Below, piece after piece: positions 10,879 through 64,000 of a stretch of DNA of 64,000 nucleotides. How positions within the stretch are numbered: the first letter of the stretch is position 1; every line of letters begins with the position of its first letter. A program made the translations under genes and the position numbers. The notes under the pieces were generated by a model. That model saw only the letters and a list, made by a program, of their open reading frames with translations. It was not told where the DNA came from and did not search any database. This DNA is from Ricinus communis (taxonomy: Eukaryota; Streptophyta; Magnoliopsida; Malpighiales; Euphorbiaceae), in the NCBI RefSeq assembly GCF_019578655.1, contig NC_063257.1, positions 33,904,242-33,968,241 on the forward strand, read 5' to 3'.

Positions 10879-11501
10879 TGTCACGTGAGTTTTGTTTTAT
10901 TTTCAAATTTTGCCCACGTGCGGCCTAGCTCACTTGATTTCCCCGAAGTCAAGATTGCTAGTCAGCCTTCCCTCGGATGCCAAACTCGGCAAAATGGCAG
11001 CAATTACGTCAGCGGAAATAAGCTTAAGAAAGTGGCACAAAGAGAGCACAAGAGTTTTGGAAAGGTAGGCTTGTATATTCTCTTATTTTTCCTTCCTTCT
11101 TTCCTTCCTTATATATTAAAAATGAAGCATAGAGGTGGTATTTATAGGCATGGATGGCCACCATCCCACCTCCTTAAAAGAATGTTCTAGATGCTACTTA
11201 TATCCATACAAGTCTAGAATATTCTAGAATAGCCTACATGTGTCTAGAATATTCTAGAGTATTCTAGTATATACAAGAATTATCCACTCCCTTCTAGAAT
11301 GTTCTAGAAGTATCTACACCCTTCTAGAATATTCTAGAAGTATCTACATCCTTCTAGATTGTTCTAGAAAGTTCTAGACTATTCTAGAGTGTTCTAGAAG
11401 GTTCTACACGTTTCTAGAGAGTTCTAGAGTATTCTAGAGAATTCTACACTACTCTAGTACTCTCGGCAAAAAATTTTGGATTTGAGCTCCACGGTGTGAC
11501 A
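10879..11501 (-). repeat. 3' LTR of the chromovirus
   Basis: 623 bp, direct repeat of 15133-15790. It is 35 bp shorter than its partner; 30 bp of this is three missing decamers of the internal TTCTAGA array. The termini are TGTCACGTGAG and CGGTGTGACA. Confidence 0.95.
11211..11460. promoter_or_regulatory. 10-bp-phased TTCTAGA / heat-shock-element array, 3' LTR
   Basis: About 25 successive decamers of the form NTTCTAGANN, some decayed, all in one 10-bp register. Because TTCTAGAA is TTC-NN-GAA, neighbouring decamers build perfect alternating TTC/GAA pentamers, for example TTCTAGAATGTTCTAGAA at 11292-11309 and the same with TA in the middle at 11322-11339. This is the textbook plant heat shock element. 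Heat response is inferred, not shown. Confidence 0.85.
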
Positions 11502-11514
11502 TTCTCCCCCACTT
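11502..11514 (-). other. Polypurine tract of the chromovirus
   Basis: AAGTGGGGGAGAA on the - strand, directly before the 3' LTR start. Confidence 0.8.
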
Positions 11515-13813
11515 AATCTGGCAATGCCCCCGTTGCCTTCTCCTCGTAAGCTTTGATTTTCTCCTCGAATTGCCACAAGTCACGAATCGGCTCCCAACTT
11601 GCCTCACTTTTGGGGAGTCCCTTCCACTTGACAAGAAACTTCGTCATTGGAGGTTGATTGGATTGTGGCACCTTATGATGGGAGATGATATAGTCCACCT
11701 CTTTATCATACTGAGCCCGCACATTCAAAGGAGCTCTTTTAGACTTACCTCTGCTCAGGTCATCGCGATCCTCCCTATAAGGCTTCAGCATGCTCACATG
11801 AAAAACAGGATGGATCTTGATGCCTTGTGGAAGTTCTACTTTGTACGCTACCTTACCCACACGTTTAATAATAGGGAAAGGTCCATCGTACCTTCTTCTG
11901 AGTCCCCAATGAAGTCCGTCAGCTTTGCCATGCTAATATAACTTGACAAGCACCTTGTCCCCTTCCTTGAACTCCATTGGTCTCCTCTTCTTGTCCGCCC
12001 ATTTCTTCATTCGCTTGGACGCCTTTTCCAAGTAGGCTCGAGCAATGTCGGCTTGCTCCTTCCATTCCTTCGCAAGCTTGAAGGCAGGTAGACTTCGGCT
12101 TGACCAATCCATGGCAAGAGCACTCGGTGTGTAGGGTTGTTGGCCTGTAACTATCTCGAATGGACTCTTGCCTGTAGACTCACTCTTCTGCAAGTTGTAA
12201 GAGAATTGGGCAACATCAAGCAGCTTCGCCCAATCTCGTTGGTTGGCACTCACGTAGTGCCTCAAATATAGTTCTAAGAGTGCATTGACCCTCTCGGTTT
12301 GCCCAGCGGTTTGGGTCTCGAATGCCTTCGTATGGTCGGGAAGTGCTAAGACCGGCTCCTCCATGATGGCCTTCTTTAGCCCTTCAAAGGCTTGTTGGCA
12401 CTTCGTAGACCAATCCCAAGCACGACCCTTCTTTAATAGATCCGTCAAAGGAGTGGCAATAGAAGAATAGCCCTTGATGAACCTCTGATAATAGTTCACC
12501 AAACCAAGGAAAGATCTCAACTCGGTCACCTTGGTTGGCGGCTCCCAATCTTGGATGGCCTTCACCTTTGAACCATCCATCTGTAGCTTTCCATCACCAA
12601 CAATATGCCCAAGGAATGCCACCTCTCGCTGGGCAAAGGAGCATTTCTCCTTCTTGACGTAGAGCTCGTTATCTCGCAAGGCTTTGAACACTAGCCTTAG
12701 ATGCTCTACGTGCTCCTCCAAAGTGTTGCTATAAACAACAATATCGTCGAGGTAAACAACGACAAACTGATCAAGGTAAGGAGCAAGTACCTTGTTCATA
12801 AGTGTACAGAATGTGGCCGGTGCATTCGTGAGGCCAAAGGGCATGACAAGGAATTCGTATGATCCATATCTCGTCACGCATGCTGTCTTTGGCTCATGTC
12901 CCTCGGAAATGCGCACTTGATAGTACCCAGACCGCAAATCCAACTTGGTAAACCACTTAGCACCACCAAGTTGATCGAAGATGTCAGCAACGTTAGGAAT
13001 CAGGTACTTATTCTTGACTGTGATCTTGTTTAGGGCACGGTAGTCAATGCATAACTGAAGGGAACCGTCGTGCTTCTTTTGAAACAAGACCGGCGCACCA
13101 TATAGAGCTTTGGATGGCCTTATGTAGCCTGCATCAAGTAGCTCATTGAGTTGCCTCCTTAGTTCCTCTAGCTCAGGAGGCGCCATTCGATAGGGTGCAA
13201 AGGCGGGTGGTTTGGCTCCCAGTTCTAATTCGATTTCGTGGTCCACTTCTCGTCGTGGATGAAGCTTCTTCGGTAATTCGGGAGGCATAATATCTTTGAA
13301 CTCATCAAGCACGCATTGGATAGGGCTTGGAAGTGTGGCACCATCAACATGGGGACCTTCTTCTACCTTGAGGGTTGCTAGGAAGGTTGGCTCCTTCCTT
13401 TTTACCCCTTTAGAGAGCTGTATGGCCGATACCATCATATCTTGGCTTAGCTCCCTCTTTATCGGCACCACACAAGGTTGGCCATTCTCCATTATGCATA
13501 TGGTATTGGCGTAGGGAACTAAGAACGCCTTCACCATGTCGAGGAAGTCCATGCCAAGATAGAATCGTTGATCATCAATAGGAGCAATGGTGATATCAAC
13601 CTTACCTTGCCATTGGCCTATACGGATGTTGGTCCCTCTCGCTATGCCAATGATAGGTAGCCTCTTCGCATTCACACCCTTGATGAAGCCCTTTTCCTTT
13701 TTATAAGGCAGCCCTATAGAGTCGGCCACCTCCTTTGCCATGTACACTGTATCAGCCCCGGTATCCACCATGGCTTGGATGCTTTTGCCTCTGATGTTAG
13801 TCTCCACGTACAT
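11513..13813 (-). pseudogene. Chromovirus pol: protease, RT, deleted RNase H/integrase, chromodomain
   Basis: The 626-residue frame 11933-13813 begins with an aspartic protease (AMVDTGAD) and reverse transcriptase ([23 protein letters not shown]). At about 12316 the RT tail ([10 protein letters not shown]) is fused in frame to the end of the integrase core ([18 protein letters not shown], holding the third acidic residue of the DDE triad). RNase H, the integrase zinc domain and the first two catalytic Asp residues are gone. A TAG ends this frame at 11933; the same frame resumes and, at 11513-11860, gives the integrase tail and a chromodomain (FLVKWKGLPKSEASWEP). Another TAG lies between gag and the protease. 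The fusion kept the frame, so the deletion may predate the stops. Confidence 0.93.
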
Positions 13814-13879
13814 TCGACCACGAGGCTTCTACTCCACTTTAGCTTGGATGGCATTGAGGAGTCGAAGGGAAGCAATTCT

Positions 13880-15060
13880 TCATTCTTCTTCTCGCTTCTC
13901 CTCTTCGGTGATTACTAAAGCTCCAAGCTTCCCACGCTTTGGACACTTGTAAGCACGATGAGGTCCATCGCAGATGAAGCAAGCAAGCTTTCTCGGAGAA
14001 GAACTACGCTTGTCTTCCTTCTTCCACTTGCCCTTGTCCTTGTACGAAGCCTTACCATCCTTGGTAGAAGATTTTCCTCTATCTCCTCCACTTTTGTCAC
14101 TTCCTTCGTACTTCTTTACCTTTGGCTTGAATGAGTCCTTCTTCTTCAACTTTATTAAGGACTCGGCAACCGCCATCACGGTGGCAAGGTCTTGCACACC
14201 TCGCCTTTCTAGCTCCAATTGAGCCCACCGAGACAAACCATCAATGAAGGCATGGAATGCTTCTTTCTCTCCCAAGTCGGGAATCTCCAACATCAATTCA
14301 GAGAATTCTTTCACATATTTCCGAATATAGCCATCTCTATGTTGGAGTCATCGAAGCTTTGACCTTGCCTCCTTCTCGGCATTGTCGGGATAAAATTGCT
14401 TCTTAAGCTCCTGCACAAAATCATCCAATGTATTAATAGTGCAAAGGCCCTTTTCACATCCTCGCACCTGCGTCTCCACCATACGGTAGCAATATCACTT
14501 AAGTAGAGAGATACAAACTTTACCTTGGTGGCGTCGTCCACTATGCCCACTGCATCAAAGTATCTCTCCAAGCTCCACAAGAAGTTTTCGATCTCCCTTG
14601 CACTCCTAGCCCCACCATAGGCCTTTGGTTTAGGAGCATCGACTTTGTGCACCGTTGTTACTTGCGCTCCCCCACTATTCGCCAACGTGGCCTTGCATAA
14701 GTTAAGCTCCACCTCGAGCTTATCGACCTTCTCCAGGCTTTGGGCAAGCAACTTCTTAAGAGCCTCATTGTCCCTCGCTAAATTATCGGCGAGAACATTT
14801 AAGGCACCTTGTATCTCCCCTCGAAGCTCCCCATCGTCCTCCTTGGACTCTAGCTTCTCGATGCGAAGGTCCATGTCTTCAATTTTATCACACCAATCAG
14901 ACATGGCAGTCTCCACCTTGACTAGCCTTTCCTCAATCGCGCCAATCACGTCGCGGGACTTATCCCTACGGCCCTTTCCGCTTTCCTTTCCTCCTTCCCT
15001 TGGAGTGGGAGGAGCGGTAGAAGTGGATTGCTCACAAACTTTGGCCATAATCTCGTGCAA
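13880..15060 (-). pseudogene. Chromovirus gag, frameshifted
   Basis: Capsid/nucleocapsid protein of the 10.9-15.8 kb element. An open frame runs from 15060 (MHEIMAKVCEQ) with a charged coiled-coil-like stretch and the gag core (REIENFLWSLERYFDAVG). It shifts frame near 14450. The correct frame continues below, meets a TGA in the Leu-Arg-Leu stretch near 14350, and goes on as 13880-14314 (EFSELMLEIPDLGEKEAFHA). The latter ends in a lysine-rich region and a zinc knuckle CFICDGPHRAYKCP (CX2CX3HX4C). The frame then stops before protease. The breaks mean no full-length gag can be made. Confidence 0.88.
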
Positions 15061-15112
15061 GAATTCCCCAAAGAACTCAACCGCGCTCTAATGCCAACTA
15101 GGCTTTGATACA

Positions 15113-15131
15113 AACTTGGCTCTGATATCAA
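15113..15131 (-). other. Primer-binding site, initiator-Met tRNA type
   Basis: On the - strand just inside the 5' LTR, TGATATCAGAGCCA differs from the usual TGGTATCAGAGCCA by one base. A second, poorer copy lies at 15097-15112. Confidence 0.7.
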
Positions 15132-15397
15132 CTGTCACGTGAGTTTTGTTTTATCCCCAAACTTTGCCCACGTGCGGCCTAGCTCACTTGATTTCCCCGA
15201 AGTCAAGATTGCTAGTCAGCTTTCCCTCGGATGCCAAACTCGGCAAAATGGCAGTAATTACGTCAGCGAAAGTAAGCTTAAGAAAGTGGCACAAAGAGAG
15301 CACAAGAGTTTTGGAAAGGTAGGCTTGTATATTCTCTTATATTTCCTTCATTCCTTCTTTTCCTTCCTTATATATTACAAATGAAGCATGGAGGTGG

Positions 15398-15405
15398 TAT
15401 TTATA
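15398..15405 (-). promoter_or_regulatory. TATA box of the chromovirus 5' LTR
   Basis: TATAAATA on the - strand, within CCTATAAATACCACC. It is conserved at 11139-11146 in the other LTR. Transcription would start near 15370. Confidence 0.7.
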
Positions 15406-15470
15406 GGCATGGATGGCCACCATCCCACCTCCTTAAAAGAATGTTCTAGATGCTACTTATATCCATACAA

Positions 15471-15750
15471 GTCTAAAATATTCTAGAATAGCCTACTTGT
15501 GTCTAGAATATTCTAGAGTATTCTAGTATATACAAGAATTATCCCCTCCCTTCTAGAATGTTCTAGAAGTATTTACACCATTCTAGAATATTCTAGAAGT
15601 ATCTACATCCTTCTAGATTGTTCTAGAAAGTTCTAGACTATTCTAGAGTGTTCTAGAAGGTTCTACACGTTTCTAGAGAGTTCTAGAGTATTCTAGAGAA
15701 TTCTACACTACTCCAGAGTGTTTTGGAGAATTCCACACTACTCTAGTACT
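15471..15750. promoter_or_regulatory. 10-bp-phased TTCTAGA / heat-shock-element array, 5' LTR
   Basis: The same array in the promoter-bearing LTR, about 28 decamers. Perfect four-pentamer elements sit at 15551-15568 and 15581-15598, and a longer run covers 15611-15660. The array lies 66-345 bp upstream of the TATA box in element direction, where an inducible enhancer would be expected. Confidence 0.85.
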
Positions 15751-15923
15751 CTTGGCAAAATTTTTTGGATTTGAGCTCCACGGTGTGACAAACGAAGGAG
15801 CTAGAAGAGGACGACAGTGCTCAATTCCAAGAAAAGGAAAAAGAGAAAGAAGAAGAAAAATTTCTTCATCAGAAATGAAATAAAAAGTAAAAAACATAAA
15901 ATTGAAATAGAGAAGCGTAAAAA

Positions 15924-16298
15924 GGGTAAATTGCCCATCTCATATCAAACTTTAGGACTATATATCAATTTAATATCAACATCTTAATTTGAATCAAAAT
16001 GATACCAAAAGTATAGAAAAGTATATCAATTTAGTCCAAATGCTCAATTTCCGACAACAGATGGTGACGTAGCAAGCTGAGGTGGTATATTCCGATTGTT
16101 TCGCCCCCTCAACGTGTGCCATGTCAATTAACTTTGTCTTCTCAGCTTGTCACGTCACCATCCGTTGTCGGAAATTAGACATTTGGACTAAATTGATATA
16201 CTTTTCTATACTTTTGGTACCATTTTGATTCAAATTAAGGTCTTAGTATCAAATTGATATACAGTCTCAAGTTTTGGTATCAGCTGAGCAATTTACCC
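15924..16298. mobile_element. Mutator-type MITE with long inverted repeats
   Basis: The 375-bp element starts GGGTAAATTGC and ends GCAATTTACCC. The arms stay complementary for about 150 bp, including the internal pair CCGACAACAGATGGTGACG and CGTCACCATCCGTTGTCGG. The flanks are a near-perfect 9-10 bp duplication (AGCGTAAAAA at 15914-15923, AGCGTAATAA at 16299-16308). Target duplications of 9-10 bp and long inverted ends are typical of Mutator-like elements. There is no coding capacity. Confidence 0.85.
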
Positions 16299-24380: not shown

Positions 24381-25805
24381 AATGGAAATATATTTGAATA
24401 GTTATATGGTGGATGTTTGGGATTGTGTTAGGAAGGAGTAGAAACCTGAAATAAAGCAAGAAGATGGTGTAGGGATTCCTTTTGATATAAATGAAAAGGT
24501 TGAGGCTCATAGAAGAGCTAATGGAAAAAATAAAAGAGTAATGATCATTCTCTTGAGCTCTCTATCAAGAGAAGAATATGAAAGAGTTAACCATCTTCCC
24601 ATCACCTTCAAAATTTGAAAGACCTTAAAGAAATGGGTCTCAAGTAGGAGGAAGAGCAAGAAGAGAAAAGAGAAGGCAAAAAGAAGTTCTTTACCCTCAA
24701 GAGCTCAACTAAGCATCATCGAGTGATAATGTTAATAAAGAACTTGTCATGCTTTCTAGAAGGGTCAAGAAAATCATCAAGAACAAGAAAAGAGATAAGA
24801 AACTTTTCAATAAACCTCCTTCAAGCTCAAGTGAAGATATAATTTGCAATGGGTATAGCAAGTAAAGGCATGTCAAGGCCGATTGCTGTAAAAGTAAGAA
24901 CAAGAAGGAGAAAACGAAAGCATTCAAGGCAACTTGGGATGCTAGTTCTTTAAGTGAAGAAGATGAAAAGGAAGTTTGCAACCTCTGCTTTATTGCCATG
25001 GAAGATGACTGCAATGAGGTATGTTCTTCATCCTATACTTATGATAGTGATTATGGTCATGATATGCATGGGATGATTGATATTGAACTCTTAGAAGCCA
25101 TAATTTCAAAATGTGAAAAGTATCATTCTGAAATGAAGTTTTATAAAGAAAAGAGTTTAAAACTAGAAAATGAGTTTAAAGAATTAGAAAAAAAAGTTTC
25201 AAGTGAATTAAAAAAATAAGTTTCAAGTCTTACTTGGTCAAATTTAGAGCTAAAAGACTCTTTAAATGAAGTCTTTTCAAAAACCTCCTCACTTAATAAG
25301 TTGTATAAGGAAAACAATGATTTCAAAAATGAAGTAGAGAAGTTAAGAAATTCTATTTAAAAGTTTCATAAGGGAAAAGAAGGTTTGGGTACACTTATTG
25401 TATCATGGAGATTTATCTAGTTCCTTTTTTGTTAAAGCCTCTATACCTCAAACATCAACTATGGAGGTAGTACCAAAGGAGGTTAAAGCACACACTAGGC
25501 CTCCTCTCCCTAAGGGAAAAGGGAAGGCACCAAAAGGTCCAAGAGGTAAGTCTCAAAGGACTAATCGTGCTTTCATGTATAACAAGAGCGCCAACAAGCA
25601 CACCCAATCACATAAACCTTATTTTTGTATGCATGATAGAGATAGGAATGTGGTGAGACCCAAATTCCAAGCAAGAAGACCATTGAACAAAAGGAACCTC
25701 AAACCCAATGTTCAATGTCATTATTGCATGAAATTTGGGCATATAAATATGTTTCATTATATTAGGAAGGCTCACCTTAAATTAGAGGATCCCTTCCAAG
25801 ACTAA
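24381..25805 (+). pseudogene. Copia-type gag, degenerate
   Basis: Words of the copia gag are visible: MEIYLNSYMVDVWDC near 24382 and SSLSREEYERVNHL near 24560. A broken knuckle region lies near 24850 (C-x9-H-V-K-A-D-C, one Cys lost). An acidic stretch then reads KAFKATWDASSLSEEDEKE into MEDDCNEV. Open pieces are 24998-25219 (coiled coil) and 25398-25805 (basic, with VQCHYCMKFGHINMF, a degenerate second finger). Stops at 25216-25218 and elsewhere break the frame. The N-terminus and leader are missing at 24380. Confidence 0.75.
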
Positions 25806-45223: not shown

Positions 45224-47532
45224 TGTAACACCCCCATCACATGTTAACCAATAAACATTAGCCAGGAAGCATACAAGCGTCGTAGAATATATACTACAGG
45301 TAGATAGGTCAATATGTAGGTTGTTAAGAATCCAGACACAAGGTTATTAACATATAAACATATGATTATACTTAAACATCATTTAACAAGTATTACAAAC
45401 ATCTTCTTATGCCTTATAAGGCATACTTCCATATATATCACATAGCGCATACAAAAATGCATCGGAGGAGACTTCACAAAACTGGCCCAACTTGGCGAGC
45501 TGCTAAAAGCTAGACTTCGCATACAACCAACGGATGCACTACTATTTACAAACCTGAAAAGAAAAATTTTGGAGAGGGGTGAGCCTCCATTTCGGTAAAT
45601 AAATAATCAACATAATCTTATCACATACACTTAATACAATTTCCACCCAATCACATAACTTTCCATGATATTCATAGTTTAGGTATAAAGTCATACCATT
45701 CTACTCAATTCATTACAACCATCATAGAAGAAATACAATTCAACAATTATGGTTAGTTCTCACGGCTTGTGGATCCCCTTTAATGTGCTGCTCCGCCTCA
45801 TCCTCACATATCACACACGTAAGGCCGCTCCGCCTCATCTCACATTATACACTTTTATAGCCTCTCTAGGCTTTAGCCTCCCAAGGCTTTATATATATAT
45901 CTTTTTTTTCATAGGGGAATCCACCATTCACATGCACATATGCACTTAACATCACAATTCAATCATTTCACTTATATCATATTTCAGCAATAACAATTGT
46001 TCCACTCAACACCAATCATTTCCATCTCGGTCATTCAAACATAAACAATATTAAGCAAACGCAACCATTTGCGAACATTTGATTAAATATATGAACATAG
46101 CAAATATTAACTATTTACTTACTCAAAATATACTTATTCCTTTAGCATATAAGAACCTCCTTTCTCCACAACTTCCTTTCCGGTGGCCTTTGAGTACTGT
46201 CAACACATTCATCAATTCACATTTCATGCATATTACAAATATTCATGTAAATGCGAGTTCTAATGCATTACAAGATCATCCCCTCTCTAATTCATAGGTC
46301 TAACTCTTCCTCTAAGACTCTCAATTACTGTTTTAATATCCTATAAACATTTCCCATCTAGTTAAATACCAATTTAACTCAAATTAACATCAATAAATTG
46401 CATAAAACTAATCTCCAACATTTCTGTTTTCTAGACAGAATTTAGTACCAAGGTATATTTATTGCTGGGAAAAATTGGCTTAATACAAAAATCTCATATT
46501 AAATAGAAATATCCATTTATGCGTCTAGTTTCATCTCCAAGAAGAATTACTCAATTCCGACTTCTATAGATTTAATTATTTTCAAATTACTGAGCAAGGG
46601 TCATACAGCTAGTTGTACCCGAGCAGCAATCTGTTTGCTCAATTTAAGCAACCAAAACGGCAAAAATAGCAAAATCACAAAACTACAAAGTTATAGAGGA
46701 CTCTTTAAAATTTCCATAGACACCAACTAAGCTTAATTTGGACTTATATGACCCATGTTATGCCTAAAATACAGAACATCAAGGTTGCTGGAATTTTGAC
46801 AGTTTTCTATCTTAACATACTTAAACTTAAATCAAGCTTAATCTTTATGCAATCATTCAATACTCTACTAATTCATGATAATCAGACCTTTAATTAATCA
46901 ATGAGAGCATCAAATGAAGTTTTTCCAATTTGTAATCATGAACCCTAATGACAAATTAATAACACTCAAGTAACAACTTACCAATTTCAGCTTTTGGGTT
47001 GCTAATATGCTTAAATCCTTTAGCTTTAGCTTGGCTCCTTCAATAGTTGGCAAAAACCTATCTTAATCTTAAGTTTTTCTAGGTATTCCACTCCTCTCTT
47101 TTATTCCAAATTTTGTGTTTTTGGCCATATACGAATTTTAGAGAAATGAAGAGGTAAAATGAGCTTACTCATGGTTCCAATTTCCAATATTCCTCTCTTA
47201 ATGCCACCACCTACTAAACTATTTTTATCACCCTAAATTAATTCTTACTAACCATATATAGGTACTAACTTTTAATTGTATCTTTTAAGTCTAATCTATT
47301 TACCCAACCTTCAACTATTGGTTCAATTAAGTCTTAAGGCTTAATACACATAACTCAAGTACTTAATCAACTTATCTAAATTAATAATCTAATATCATGC
47401 TTCTTATTCTTTACTTATAATTAATATATATATGTTCTCATAAAATAAAAATATCATTGATATACCATCATATGCCCAATGATTAAATATAAATGCACAT
47501 AACATGGATGATGAGAAAATGCAGGCGTTACA
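45224..47532 (-). repeat. 3' LTR of the Tekay-like element, complete
   Basis: 2,309 bp, TGTAACACCCCCATCAC to GCAGGCGTTACA on the + strand, giving TGTAACG...GTTACA in element direction. It has no gene. 45850-45900 holds AGGCTTTATATATATAT. Confidence 0.93.
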
Positions 47533-50532
47533 ACTCTCCCTTCCTTAAGAAATTTCGTCCCCAAAATTTTAACAACTCACCAACATTACAATGGAATAGA
47601 TGTGGATACTTCTGTCTCATATGCTCTTCTACTTCCCAAGTTGCTTCTCTTGGTGAATGATGACTCCACTTAATTTTGACCATAGGAATGTCTTTATTTC
47701 TCAATTTCTTAACCCTTCGATCAAGAATTTCTATCGGTTCTTCCACATATGTCAACTTTTCTGTGATTTCTATCTCTGGCTCTGGAATGATATGACTAGG
47801 ATCTGATCTATATTGCTTCAACATAGAAACGTGAAAAACATCATGAATAGAAGACAACTCTGTAGGTAATGCTAACCTATAAGCCAATGGTCCAACTCTT
47901 TCAATTATTTCATAAGGTCCTACATACCTCGGACTCAATTTCCCTTGTTTACCAAACCTTAATATTCCTTTCCATGGTGATACCCGTAAGAAAACTTTAT
48001 CACCCACAATATATTCCATTTCCCTTCGATGCAAATCAGCATAACTCTTTTATGCATCTGTGCTACTTTCAAATTCTTTTTAACTATCTCTATTTTATCC
48101 AACGTTTCTTGTACCATTTCGGACCTTCAAGCCGCTCTTAAACCTTCAACATCCCGACATCTTGGACTTCTACATTTCCTCCCATACAAAGCTTCATAAG
48201 GAGCCATACCGATACTAGAATGAAAACTGTTGTTATATCGCAAATTCCATCCGTGGTATGTAATCACCCCAGTTACCCTTGAACTCAAGTGTGCAAGCCC
48301 TCATCATATCTTCTAATGTCCGAATAGTTCTTTCCGATTGCCCATCCTGTTTGAGGATGAAAAGTCGCATCGAAATGAAGCTTAGTACCATATGCTTTCT
48401 CAAACTCTCCCGGAAACGAGAAGTAAATCCGGGATCCCTATCCGATACAATAGATATAGGCACACCATGCAATCTAACAATCTCGGGAAATATACAATTC
48501 AGCAAGTTTATCAAGTGAATCATTTTGCTTCACAGGGTAAGAAATGAGCACATTTAGTACGTCGATCAACAATTACCCAAATAGCATCATGCTTGTTAAA
48601 TGTACGCGGCAATCCCATAACAAAATCCATAGTAATCTTATCCCACTTCCATACAGGTATAGATAAAGAATGAAGTTTACCTATAGGTGCCTGGTGCTCT
48701 CCTTTCACTTGCTGACATGTCAAACACTTACTCACAAATTCGCCATATCCTTCTTCATTTGACCACCAATAATAAGGCTTCAAATTTTTGTACATTTTGG
48801 TACTTCCAGGATGCATTGCATAAGGTGCATAGTGCGCTTCATGCATGATTTCCTTTCTCAAATTTCCTACATCAGGTACACATACACGATTTCTATTCAA
48901 TAACACACCATCATCTTTCAACACAAATTGTGTATTCTTTCCTTTTTGTACTCTACCCTTCATCCTTTGCAAATAAGAATCTTCACACTGTGCATCTTTA
49001 ATTTTATCTCCAATCAAAGGCTTTACTTGTAATGTGGCTAACAGATCATTGTCATAAACATAAAACTTCACATCCATAGCTCTAAGTGCAACTAAATATT
49101 CTACATTGTAACAAATCATACTTGAAAAATTTTCCAACGACTTCCTACTTAAAGCATCGAAGAATAACATTTGCTTTTCCAGGATGATAATCAATAGTGC
49201 AATCATAATCCTTCAAAAGCTCAATCCATCTTCGTTGTCTCATATTCAACTCTTTCTGCGTAGGGATATATTTCAAACTCTTATGATCAGTAAATATCTG
49301 AAATGTCTCCCTGTATAAATAATGTCGCCATATCTTCAATGCATGTACAATAGCTGCTAATTCAAGATCATGTGTAGGATAATTCAGCTCATGAGGTCGT
49401 AATTGTCTTGAAGCATAAGCTATAACCTTCCCATGCTGCATTAAGACACATCCAAGTCCTTGCCTAGAAGCATCAGTATATACAACATAACCTCCATTTT
49501 CAGATGGCAATGCGAGTATCGGTGTAGTAGTAAGCCTTTTCTTCAACTCTTGAAAATTTTGATCACATAACTCCATCCACTGGAATGGCACATTCTTCTT
49601 TAACAAAGCTGTTAGAGGCTTAGCAATAACTGAAAAATCTTTTACAAATCTTCTATAATAGCCAGCTAACCCAAGAAAACTTCGAACTTCAGAAACATTT
49701 CTAGGCGGTTCCCATTCAATAATTGCTTTAATCTTTGATGAATCTGGTTGTACTCCATGTTTAGAAATAATATGCCCTAAGAATGCAATTTCCTCCATCC
49801 AAAACTCGCATTTGTTGAATTTTGCATACAACTGTTTTTCCCTCAAAATCTATAAAACAATTCTCAAGTGTTGTTCATGCTCTTCTGGGCTTCTAGAGTA
49901 AATCAGAATATCATCAATGAACACAATAACAAAGTGATCTAAATATGGCTGGAAAGTCTTGTTCATCAGTGACATAAAAACAGCAGGAGCATTTGTTAAA
50001 CCAAATGGCATCACAATAAATTCATAGTGCCCATACCTTGTTCTGAATGCTGTCTTGGCAATAGATTTCTCTTCAACCCGGAGTTGCCAATAACCTGATC
50101 TTAAATCAATTTTAGAGAACACAGTTGCACCTTTTAACTGATCAAGCAAATCATCAATTCTCGGCAATGGATATTTATTCTTCACTGTAATCCTATTCAA
50201 TTGCCTATAATCAATACATAATCGCATACTACCATCCTTTTTCTTCACAAACAGAACTGGTGCTCCCCAAGGTGAAGTACTTGGCCTGATGAAACCTTTA
50301 TCAAGTAACTCTTCTAATTGCTTCTTTAATTCTTTCAATTCTAATGGAGCCATTCTGTATGGTGCAATGGAAATAGGTGCAGTACCAGGGATGATGTCAA
50401 TCTCAAAATCAACCTCTCGATTTGGTGGCAAACCAGGCAAATCATCTAAGAATATGTTAGGAAATTCTCTGACCACTGGAATGTCTAATACCCCTGGACT
50501 GACCTTAGTAGTATCTATAAAACTAATTAGAT
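47528..50532 (-). pseudogene. Tekay-like pol: RT, RNase H, integrase, chromodomain (broken)
   Basis: The frame enters at 50532 with no start of its own. [13 protein letters not shown] and [11 protein letters not shown] (FIDD where most have Y-DD), then a TAG at 49847-49849, probably from CAG. RNase [18 protein letters not shown] in 49145-49846, ending in a frameshift near 49155 just before DALSRKS. Integrase: HHCC zinc region (HPGSTKMYKN...CLTCQQVK), core Asp in MDFVMGLPRT, second Asp in SDRDPGFTSRF, Glu in QDGQSERTIRTL. A break lies near 48522 and another frameshift near 48350. Integrase tail and chromodomain ([20 protein letters not shown]) are in 47528-48034. The stop TAA lies inside the LTR start TGTAA. 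Confidence 0.94.
47533..47546 (-). other. Polypurine tract of the Tekay-like element
   Basis: AAGGAAGGGAGAGT on the - strand next to the 3' LTR. The last pol codons overlap it. Confidence 0.85.
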
Positions 50533-51814
50533 ATGCGAGTTCTAATGCATTACAAGATCATCCCCTCTCTAATTCATAGGTCTAACTCTTCCTCTAAGAC
50601 TCTCAATTACTGTTTTAATATCCTATAAACATTTCCCATCTAGTTAAATACCAATTTAACTCAAATTAACATCAATAAATTGCATAAAACTAATCTCCAA
50701 CATTTCTGTTTTCTAGACAGAATTTAGTACCAAGGTATATTTATTGCTGGGAAAAATTGGCTTAATACAAAAATCTCATATTAAATAGAAATATCCATTT
50801 ATTCGTCTAGTTTCATCTCCAAGAAGAATTACTCAATTCCGACTTCTATAGATTTAATTATTTTCAAATTACTGAGCAAGGGTCATACAGCTAGTTGTAC
50901 CCGAGCAGCAATCTGTTTGCTCAATTTAAGCAACCAAAACGGCAAAAATAGCAAAATCACAAAACTACAAAGTTATAGAGGACTCTTTAAAATTTCCATA
51001 GACACCAACTAAGCTTAATTTGGACTTATATGACCCATGTTATGCCTAAAATACAGAACATCAAGGTTGCTGGAATTTTGACAGTTTTCTATCTTAACAT
51101 ACTTAAACTTAAATCAAGCTTAATCTTTATGCAATCATTCAATACTCTACTAATTCATGATAATCAGACCTTTAATTAATCAATGAGAGCATCAAATGAA
51201 GTTTTTCCAATTTGTAATCATGAACCCTAATGACAAATTAATAACACTCAAGTAACAACTTACCAATTTCAGCTTTTGGGTTGCTAATATGCTTAAATCC
51301 TTTAGCTTTAGCTTGGCTCCTTCAATAGTTGGCAAAAACCTATCTTAATCTTAAGTTTTTCTAGGTATTCCACTCCTCTCTCTTATTCCAAATTTTGTGT
51401 TTTTGGCCATGTACGAATTTTAGAGAAATGAAGAGGTAAAATGAGCTTACTCATGGTTCCAATTTCCAATATTCCTCTCTTAATGCCACCACCTACTAAA
51501 CTATTTTTATCACCCTAAATTAATTCTTACTAACCATATATAGGTACTAACTTTTAATTGTATCTTTTAAGTCCAATCTATTTACCCAACCTTCAACTAT
51601 TGGTTCAATTAAGTCTTAAGGCTTAATACACATAACCCAAGTACTTAATCAACTTATCTAAATTAATAATCTAATATCATGCTTCTTATTCTCTACTTAT
51701 AATTAATATATATATGTGCTCATAAAATAAAAATATCATTGATATACCATCATATGCCCAATGATTAAATATAAATGCACATAACATGGATGATGAGAAA
51801 ATGCAGGCGTTACA
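50533..51814 (-). repeat. 5' LTR of the Tekay-like element, truncated to its U3 side
   Basis: 1,282 bp, colinear with 46251-47532. Similarity starts abruptly at ATGCGAGTTC, where pol sequence ends. Confidence 0.93.
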
Positions 51815-60929: not shown

Positions 60930-62383
60930 TCATTTGATGGGCTTGAAAATCCCAAAACAGTCATCTTCGTTCGAGTCACCATCTAGGTATATTGCTGCTG
61001 AGCTGGTGCTGGAATAGGAAGATGAAGCTTTTGATTTTCCTTTGGAAGAGGCGGTTTCCGACAATTTTTTTATCAACTGTAAGAAGTCTTCTTCTGTCTG
61101 AGCCGCTGCTAGCTTTAGAATAATGAAGGACTTCTGTGCCAAGAAAGTGGTCTGTTCTTTCGGAGGTGGCAAGAAGCTATTTTTTGAAATGAAATTTTGT
61201 ACTAACTTTAGTGATAATTTTTCTTGGTGGTTAAATTTATCCCACCATTTGACTTTGAACCTTCGGGCAAGGATGATTTCTCCATCTGCTGCTTGATTGA
61301 AATGGAAATACCATACACATACCCAGGAGAGAAAAAGTTTGAACAAAATAGAAGTAACGGGGGAAAACGTCTTTCTATTTTGTTTGGTATATAGTGGGCT
61401 TTGAAAAGGTTAAACAGAGGTAGAACTTCGGGAATTATGGTCTTAAGTACATTGCCATAAAAATTCCATCATTGTTTAAACCAATAGGGGATATTTGAAG
61501 TTTGGATTGAGCTTGTATCAAAGTAGAAAAGCCAGGAATGGCTTTGTCCTTCGTTTCGAAGAAGAAAGGTATTAAACCAAGCTTGTTGGTAATCCCAATA
61601 GTTGAAAGAAGTATTTAGGCTTGATGGGTAGGTTCTTTGGAGGGAAGATGGAAAAGATCTTGATGAGTGTAAATCCATTCACCAATCTGGAGGGTGGAGG
61701 ATTCTTTGTATGGTGCATGTGGAATATGCGGGGTCTTTATGGTCTTTATATTTTTTGAAGTGTTTGAACTTTGCAGAACCAGTTACCTCAAGGATAGACT
61801 GGTAGTAGGATTGAGGCTTTGAAATATTCTAGGGCTTGAAATACCATCTTGGAGGGAAAATCTTTGAAATCAGTTTTGAGGGACTTTCTGTACAGAATCC
61901 TTCCTCAATAGTCAAAATGCTTTGAAAATTTTGCTTTTCTATATACTCATTGGATTTGAAAAGTTTTGTTTATGACAAAACTATTTCTTGAGAGTTGGGC
62001 TTTGAAATACTTTTAAAGCTCTGAGATAGGTTTTGAGGAAAAATTTCTATCTCAAGTTTTGAAAAAGGGATAGAAAGTATACCTTTACCCTTGTTGGAAG
62101 AGGAGGATGACTTTGGAGAGGCTTCGGGTTGAAGTTGTATCAATTGCTTTGAATATTCTTCGACTCTTTTTAGGAATTCTGGATCTTGCTGAGCAAACCA
62201 CTCCTGAATTTGTAATTGTTGTCGGGTCGGATCTTCCTTGCTTTTATCAATTTCTTCCTGGATGATTTCCGTCCAGGTTCTGATGGTCTTTAAAGAAGAA
62301 GGCAAAATTTCCTTCTTTAGACTTTGGACAGGCTTTGAACTTGCTGTCGACTTTTCTTCTTTTGATTTTGATTTTCTTGGCAT
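60930..62383 (-). pseudogene. Pararetrovirus ORF2, function unknown (broken)
   Basis: Starts at ATG 62383-62381, only two bases after the ORF1 stop. The first piece (to 61970) is rich in Lys, Ser, Glu and Gln with a helical segment (LQIQEWFAQQDPEFLKRVEE). A stop follows. The piece 61469-61678 holds YQQAWFNTFLLRNEGQSHSW, and 60930-61346 has a helical, Ser-rich tail (TEEDFLQLIKKLSET) ending with an acidic stretch (DGDSNEDD). At least two breaks separate these. A second ORF after RNase H is a feature of florendovirus-like genomes; its role is unknown. Confidence 0.75.
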
Positions 62384-62385
62384 TT

Positions 62386-64000
62386 TCACTCCTGTTTTTG
62401 AAGGAACTCTCTGGTTAGAAAGTCTGGAATTGAATTTGAATCTCCTCTTATGTATTCGATTTCAAAATCAAAAACAGAAAGAATGGCTTGCCATCTGGCA
62501 AAAATCTATTTTGAAGCTATGTTTTGAACATCTTTTTGTAAAACTTCTTTAGCAGATTTATAATCAATCCTTAAAAGAAATTTTTGGTTTAAAAGATCGC
62601 TTTGAAATTTTGAAATGCACAAAACTATCGAAAGAATTTCTTTTATGATAGTTGAATAGTTTTTTTGTGTATCATTCCAGTGTGCAAAAGTAAACTGGAC
62701 AATACATTCTTTGTTGTTTTGGACTTGCTTAAGAATTCCACCATATCCTAGATTTGATGCATCAGTTTCAACAATTTTGAATGCAGATGGATCAGCTAGG
62801 TGTAAACATGGTATTTTAGAAACTTATTTTTTTATGCTTTGGACAATCTTTGTATGCTCATCGGTCCATGCAGGGGGGTTTTTCTTTAACCTATCATGTA
62901 GGGGCTTTGCTAGACAGTTCAAATTTGGATAAAAATCCATCACATAATTTAAACCACCAAGGAATCTTTGTAATTGTGTTTTTTCCAAAATTTTTCTGGA
63001 AACTTTGAAGTAAAGGCTAGAGACCTTTCAATTGGGGTGATAGTTCCCCGGGAGATATAGTGACCAAGAAACCTAATTTTTGTTTGGAATAAAGATATCT
63101 TGGATTTTAAAACCACTAAACCATTTTTCTTGACAACATAGAAAAATGTCTCCAGGTGTTTGAAATGTTGCTCTAGAGAATTTGAAAATATCAATACATC
63201 ATCAATGTAGACAATGCAAAACTTTGAATAAGGATTGAAAATGTCATTCATGATTTTTTGAAATTCAGAAGGAGCATTTTTTAATCCGAAGGGCATTACA
63301 TTCCATTCGTACTTGCCGAATGGAACTGTAAAAGTAGTTTTGTACCTGTCTTTTGGATGAATCTGGATTTGCCAAAATCCTGATTTCATATCAAACTTTG
63401 AAAAAATAAAAGCATAATGAAGCTTTTGAAGAAGATCCTTTTTGTTTGGAATTGGGTATCTAATCCATTTTAGGTCTTTATTTAAAGGTTTGTAATTATT
63501 CACCAACCTAGGTGTTCCTCTTTCTATCTCACTATTTTTATTGACATAGAAAGCTACACAAGACCAGGGGGATCTGGATTTGGTAATCAAACCTTTTTGC
63601 TCTAAATCTTTTATTTCTATTCTACAATGGCTTTTTAGGGTTTCATTCATTTGGATGGGTCTTGCTTTGGTAGGGATTTGTTTATTAGAAAAATCTTTTT
63701 CATATGGTAAATCTACCATATGTTGTTTTCGTCTCTAAAAAGCATTAGGAAGATCAGAACAAACTTCATTTTCAATCTTCTTTTGCAAATCAGAGATTTT
63801 TCTTTGGACAAAATCATTTTGCATTTGACTTTGGATCCTTTTCAAACCCATATGTTGTTTTAAGTGGAAAAGCTGGGTTTGTTTTCCTTTGATCAAAGCA
63901 TTTATCTCAAAATTGTAAATTGAGTGGGCTTTAATAAGATTGAGATTTCTCTTTTTGGGTTTTTCTATAAAAGGAAAAACAATCTTTAAATCTTTAGCTT
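62386..64000 (-). pseudogene. Pararetrovirus ORF1, C-terminal part: RT and RNase H (broken)
   Basis: The frame enters from the right edge and meets a TAG at 63737-63735. The 256-residue stretch 62949-63719 follows with the reverse transcriptase: GTPRLVNNYKPLN, IFSKFDMKSGFWQIQI, PFGLKNAPSEFQ, and YIDD as the catalytic pair. A frameshift near 62985 moves the connection domain to another frame. The RNase H part then shows acidic sites in VETDASNLGYGG, STIIKEILSIV, LLRIDYKSA and SIPDFLTRE. One more TAG is at 62508-62506. It ends with TGA at 62388-62386. Movement protein, coat protein and most of protease would lie beyond the window. Confidence 0.9.

Follow-up and report, generated by a model that had tools for sequence, protein, structure and literature searches.

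The two long terminal repeats (LTRs) of a Ty3/gypsy chromovirus of castor (Ricinus communis) each carry an array of decamers in one 10-bp register that contains perfect heat shock elements (HSEs), that is, runs of three or more alternating nGAAn modules (3P, three units; 4P, four units), and this array is probably a heat shock factor (HSF)-driven, heat-inducible upstream enhancer of the LTR. The element lies at 10879–15790 on the minus strand of the window, the whole 64,000-nucleotide stretch of DNA that was analyzed, and its features are collected in Table 1.

Table 1. Coordinates of the array-bearing chromovirus copy and of its perfect HSEs in the window
Feature	Position	Strand	Remarks
5' LTR	15133..15790	-	658 bp; TGTCAC...GTGACA ends
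HSE decamer array, 5' LTR	15471..15750	-	28 slots, one 10-bp register
4P perfect HSE, 5' LTR	15551..15568	.	
4P perfect HSE, 5' LTR	15581..15598	.	
3P perfect HSE, 5' LTR	15621..15633	.	
3P perfect HSE, 5' LTR	15651..15663	.	
TATAAATA (TATA box) of 5' LTR	15398..15405	-	
Primer binding site, initiator-Met-like	15118..15132	-	
gag frame, part 1	14311..15087	-	homologous to Ricinus proteins; Pfam: no match
gag frame, part 2	13880..14347	-	zinc knuckle by eye; Pfam: no match
pol frame: protease, reverse transcriptase, RNaseH stub	11933..13828	-	
Integrase end (SH3_Tf2-1, Integrase_p58_C) and chromodomain	11513..11932	-	Pfam matches
Polypurine tract	11502..11513	-	
3' LTR	10879..11501	-	623 bp; TGTCAC...GTGACA ends
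HSE decamer array, 3' LTR	11212..11461	-	25 slots, one 10-bp register
3P perfect HSE, 3' LTR	11217..11229	.	
4P perfect HSE, 3' LTR	11292..11309	.	
4P perfect HSE, 3' LTR	11322..11339	.	
3P perfect HSE, 3' LTR	11362..11374	.	
3P perfect HSE, 3' LTR	11392..11404	.	

The interval holds a single defective chromovirus copy with an LTR pair, a primer binding site (whose matching tRNA we take to be initiator Met), and a polypurine tract. Its domains (protease, reverse transcriptase, RNaseH stub, and integrase end) follow the Ty3/gypsy order PR-RT-RNaseH-IN, and the integrase end carries a chromodomain (PF00385, E = 1e-13) together with an SH3_Tf2-1 match (E = 3e-18); the chromovirus identity proposed in an initial annotation of this DNA is thus borne out by the chromodomain and PR/RT matches, the primer binding site, and the purine tract. 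Within the chromoviruses the element may be Galadriel-like. A search of the window copy for the remaining RNaseH and for the integrase core found neither, so this copy cannot move by means of its own proteins. The gag frame is 81–90% identical to proteins of Ricinus communis and 37% identical to a Hevea match, and a protein search with the integrase-chromodomain piece gave 221 relatives, those named among the 120 listed being from plants. The two LTRs differ by 20 substitutions in 623 sites (K2P 0.033), which, with substitution rates of 1.3e-8 and 7e-9 used for LTR dating, places the insertion at about 1.3–2.4 million years ago; of the 35 gapped positions in their alignment, 30 form a single indel inside the array. 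Comparison of the five bases flanking each LTR revealed no match between the two sides.

Several other features of the window may be recorded here. A MITE-like fold-back with 158-nt inverted-repeat arms (87% complementary, 59 nt apart) sits beside the 5' LTR at 15924–16298, and the end of each LTR contains two G-boxes (CACGTG; 15136–15141 and 15169–15174, with copies at 10882–10887 and 10915–10920), out of ten in the whole window. A second, broken chromovirus is found on the minus strand at 47528–50557 (SH3_Tf2-1, Chromo, and Integrase_H2C2 matches, with RT-like frames discerned by eye), and no strict 3P or 4P chain was found near it. Minus-strand frames at 60930–63734 (RVT_1, E = 4e-35) recall, by eye, an endogenous pararetrovirus, and a frame at 25347–25805, perhaps a copia remnant, has a gag-like zinc knuckle by eye and no match in Pfam.

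The initial annotation had placed a phased array in both LTRs and had put the 5' array 66–345 bp upstream of the TATA box, and the slots (decamer positions) of Table 1 agree with both statements; the difference between 28 and 25 slots is the 30-bp indel. The unit on the sense (minus) strand is NNNTCTAGAA. Strict in-register GAA occupies 18 of the 28 slots in the 5' LTR and 17 of the 25 in the 3' LTR, strict TTC nine and ten, giving 27 strict modules per LTR at the two HSE phases; at the other phases there are no GAA and two (5') or one (3') TTC. Each LTR has ten GAA at consecutive exact 10-bp steps, and a CTAGAA singleton at sense position 342 of the 5' LTR stands out of register. As a control, 280-bp tiles whose starts fall outside the LTRs (n = 6189) hold at most seven in-register modules (mean 3.08). 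The window contains nine perfect chains (at least three alternating GAA/TTC at 5-bp steps), all inside the two arrays (two 4P per LTR, plus two 3P in the 5' copy and three in the 3' copy), compared with a mean of 1.33 such chains (maximum 6), and 0.03 chains of at least four (maximum 1), in 60 dinucleotide shuffles of the window. The four 18-mers named as HSEs in the annotation are exact, and the five 3P elements had been missed. Its description as an array of TTCTAGA decamers overstates the uniformity: exact TCTAGAA occurs 14 times in each array, out of 28 slots in the 5' LTR and 25 in the 3' LTR, and seven slots per LTR hold the whole TTCTAGAA dyad, so the units are not uniform; nTCnnGAn is kept in 16. 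The array is a mix of perfect and degenerate modules.

Conservation within the decamer is very uneven. Between units, identity at TCTAGA is 0.77 and 0.85 in the two arrays, versus 0.31 and 0.29 at the three spacer bases, where 0.28 is expected at random; because the two LTRs share most of their spacers, the divergence of spacers among units predates this insertion. Conservation also goes beyond the nGAAn rule in that the TA separating TTC from GAA is maintained, a pyrimidine-purine dinucleotide being present there in 26 of 28 and 24 of 25 slots, and in that A precedes the TTC position in 15 of 28 slots (p = 0.017). Published HSF data agree with the kept TA: the motif from Arabidopsis HSFA2/HSFA3 ChIP peaks is TTCtaGAAnnTTCt (PMC10230730), which the array unit matches; the consensus of pepper CaHSF8 sites is TTCTAGAA (PMC10368638); and in HSF-DNA structures the spacer is pyrimidine-purine, G is the base conserved most strongly, and the A ahead of TTC is contacted (PMC8379338). 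Counting against a strict HSE reading is the weak outer T of TTC, which is found in 12 of 28 slots (p = 0.17) and is not above background; with C5 replaced by G in seven of 28 slots, this makes a third of the modules weak.

It is unlikely, in our estimation, that the array is a neutral minisatellite with no regulatory role, in which slippage or unequal exchange multiplied a 10-bp unit that was then spread by retrotransposition. Tandem repeats are common in LTRs, the two LTRs of the window differ by one indel of 30 bp, and lengths elsewhere also change unit-wise, since 104 of 147 array gaps between elements are multiples of 10, as against 17 of 416 gaps in the flanks. A neutral repeat fits poorly, on the other hand, with the very unequal conservation within the unit (chi-square 50 and 61, 9 df, with p-values that are too small because the units share ancestry) and with a core that is kept while the spacers are random, given that 0.33% of random decamers yield an endless perfect HSE; the fixed distance to the TATA box in 31 LTRs and the recurrence of the array in a second family, both described below, speak against it as well.

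The comparison of LTRs across the family, a check proposed in the initial annotation, was made in the castor genome (315.5 Mb, 140 contigs) with a 273-bp R-U5 piece lacking the array as query; of 200 first-look candidates, the best 40, including the two LTRs of the window, were scored. Of these 40 best-scoring LTRs, 35 retain the array (five or more upstream TCTAGA plus one or more upstream chains of 3P length or longer), 31 have a 4P element, and four (L019, L026, L042, and L050) lack the array from the 560 bp upstream, where each has a single TCTAGA; these four count against the enhancer reading. L019 and L026 are apparently an LTR pair from a single element, and the fifth LTR outside the 35, L024, has 130 bp of upstream sequence only. 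In the 31 LTRs with a single-register array, the last in-phase TCTAGA lies 70–104 bp (median 73) from the TATA box. We refer to these LTRs as family A.

Differences between 20 family A elements (190 pairs) amount to 0.052 in the core, 0.083 in the spacers, and 0.101 in the flanks, and those within nine LTR pairs, which arose after insertion, to 41 of 1146, 26 of 573, and 66 of 1321 positions, respectively. This contrast leaves out nine of the 40 scored LTRs, which have no array in a single register (L014, L017, L019, L024, L026, L031, L042, L049, and L050), uses nine of 12 listed LTR pairs, and omits aligned positions of differing class. The bootstrapped core/spacer ratio is 0.63 (0.46–0.85) between elements and 0.79 (0.59–1.09) within them. 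The slower change of the core between elements is suggestive, being in the direction expected if the core was kept while elements were active; the contrast before versus after insertion is not significant in this sample (ratio of ratios 0.79, 0.51–1.23), a point in favor of the minisatellite.

The 4P pattern TTCNNGAANNTTCNNGAA occurs at 273 places genome-wide, versus 117 for the pattern read backwards. We checked the first 50 listed, which come from contig C1 plus the initial 16.4 Mb of C2 and hence are not a random sample, examining the surroundings of 48, the other two being in LTR copies L044 and L046. Among these 50 sites, 39 are in LTRs of family A (4) or of a second castor family, B (35), with some assigned on a partial R-U5 match (e.g., L059, L062, and L089), and 11 are elsewhere. 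The sequence TTCTAGAANNTTCTAGAA makes up 35 of the 50 and in all 35 cases lies just upstream of a family A or B R-U5. If the first 50 are typical, the excess of 4P sites over the backward control is due to the LTRs of these two families.

Eight family B LTR pairs were read, with repeats of 490–653 bp that are 91–99% identical and 2.8–3.1 kb apart. The family A R-U5, compared with 20 stretches at E = 1e-8, had no match in 19, and the one match was a family A copy. One B copy, L056, has a gag like that of family A and the same kind of primer binding site and purine tract, and by eye seems to be without much of pol; its LTRs are 99% identical, from which it follows that family B moved fairly recently. 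Family B arrays read TTCTAGAACATTCTAGAATCATCTGGAAGC continuing for several decamers, are shorter than those of family A, and differ in length mostly by steps of 10 bp, with the 4P element 136–216 bp upstream of the TATA box. Because family B was sampled by way of its 4P sites, the sample does not give the share of B copies that lack an array.

The spacers bear on whether a different factor, either GARP/PHR1-type or an unknown TCTAGA binder, acts on the array alone or together with HSFs, which we regard as improbable. P1BS (GNATATNC) is the motif of GARP/PHR1-type factors, and it arises wherever the spacer gives GAATATTC; nine of the 30 matches in the window fall in the two LTRs, the 31 related LTRs hold 103, and the conserved heptamer TCTAGAA does not follow the textbook HSE rule exactly. 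However, the spacer is TA in only 79 of 167 GAA-NN-TTC dyads, and most of the listed family B 4P sites have the spacer CA and no P1BS. Since P1BS thus requires a spacer absent from most of the listed B sites, a phosphate factor would be at most a side input, and the conserved TA in the center of TTCTAGAA is accounted for by the HSF motifs cited above.

A third possibility, to which we give very little weight, is that the array acts simply as DNA, either as a CG/CHG-poor stretch that escapes maintenance methylation or as a phased stretch that excludes nucleosomes from the promoter. There are two CG and two CHG strand-sites in 306 bp of the 5' array and two and none in 279 bp of the 3' array, compared with 16 and 10–11 in the rest of each LTR, and shuffling the spacers alone gives P of about 0.03 in each LTR; the ONSEN LTR has no CG or CHG (PMC3907296). 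Against this, the scarcity is mostly automatic, because the core cannot hold such sites; 13.5% of the 280-bp tiles of the window are equally poor, and the whole 5' LTR has 20 CG and 13 CHG strand-sites. We therefore reject methylation avoidance as the main function, the scarcity following mostly from the core and being not unusual in the window.

Returning to the HSF-driven enhancer, the sequence suggests the following course of events. HSF trimers would occupy the perfect HSEs (4P and 3P) and, with less affinity, the degenerate modules that separate them; an array so loaded, upstream of the TATA box, would switch the LTR on under heat; and activated LTRs would drive transcription of full-length family members, with a presumed benefit to the element. 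In Brassicaceae copia elements, 3P elements are associated with up to hundred-fold and 4P elements with up to thousand-fold heat induction, and gap and step elements alone are mostly insufficient (PMC5059998). The castor LTR has at least three adjacent nGAAn modules upstream of the predicted start, and heat is likely to switch these LTRs on. The HSE identity and ONSEN-like logic put forward in the initial annotation gain support from the retention in family A, the second family, and the HSF motifs cited above. A homologue of HSFA2 is among the positively selected genes of wild castor (PMC9510866); a connection with the LTR arrays would be speculative.

As a more tentative proposal, which we put at somewhat less than an even chance, most high-affinity HSEs of castor may belong to LTR enhancers from a pair of related chromovirus families and not to heat-shock genes, the arrays having been kept since before the LTRs diverged beyond recognition. 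If so, heat would activate dispersed LTR promoters in large numbers simultaneously, and the arrays could act as an HSF sink or supply neighboring genes with preformed heat enhancers. The heat-responsive LTRs that we found described are mainly copia with one short cluster of HSF sites; a chromovirus lineage with long phased arrays in two families, holding 39 of the first 50 checked 4P sites, would mean that gypsy elements followed the same path on a much larger scale, which raises the question of whether retrotransposons dominate the HSF landscape of a plant.

Relatives of the array were also sought in other DNA. Scanning prokaryote genomes for three exact TTCTAGAA units gave none, and pattern scans of viral contigs (five and 17 matches) confirmed no chromovirus loci. 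Two viral contigs with short 10-bp repeats, L001 and L002, were considered as relatives and rejected, as their open reading frames are phage-like. The perfect 10-bp repeats that these phage-like contigs carry between genes (L001, 2877–2911; L002, 1786–1817 and 2115–2154) are of the GNNTTCTAGA type and unrelated to LTRs.

Repeated LTR enhancer units that confer stress responses are known from tobacco Tnt1 and Tto1, which are copia elements and use motifs and factors other than those of the castor array. Among the open-licence papers listed in literature searches, none presents such arrays for chromovirus LTRs or for castor in its title or abstract opening. ONSEN is activated through HSFA2 under heat (PMC3907296), and like ONSEN/ATCOPIA78, TERESTRA, and COPIA37, the castor LTR has adjacent nGAAn modules that include 4P elements (PMC3907296 and PMC5059998). 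Unlike those Ty1/copia elements, which have a single cluster of some four to six nGAAn, the castor element is a Ty3/gypsy chromovirus with 27 strict modules per LTR, known from its sequence; its gypsy domain order and chromodomain, and an LTR in which only the array is nearly free of CG/CHG, place it outside the ONSEN/ATCOPIA78 family. Ty3/gypsy LTR elements of Cryptomeria japonica are induced by heat (as cited in PMC9780303), and in the material available we came across no account of HSE arrays for these LTRs. In Cryptococcus, the fungal LTR retrotransposons TCN3 and TCN12 are mobile at 37°C and have putative HSEs in the LTR; these number one or two and form no phased array, which distinguishes them from castor (PMC12810828). 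Caenorhabditis Helitrons hold the majority of the HSEs of the genome, some of them tandem and HSF-1-bound (PMC6927752), but these are rolling-circle DNA transposons of animals with ChIP evidence, whereas the castor case concerns plant LTR promoters read from DNA. The castor arrays thus differ from their known kin in the clade of the element, in array length, and in the share of checked 4P sites that they account for.
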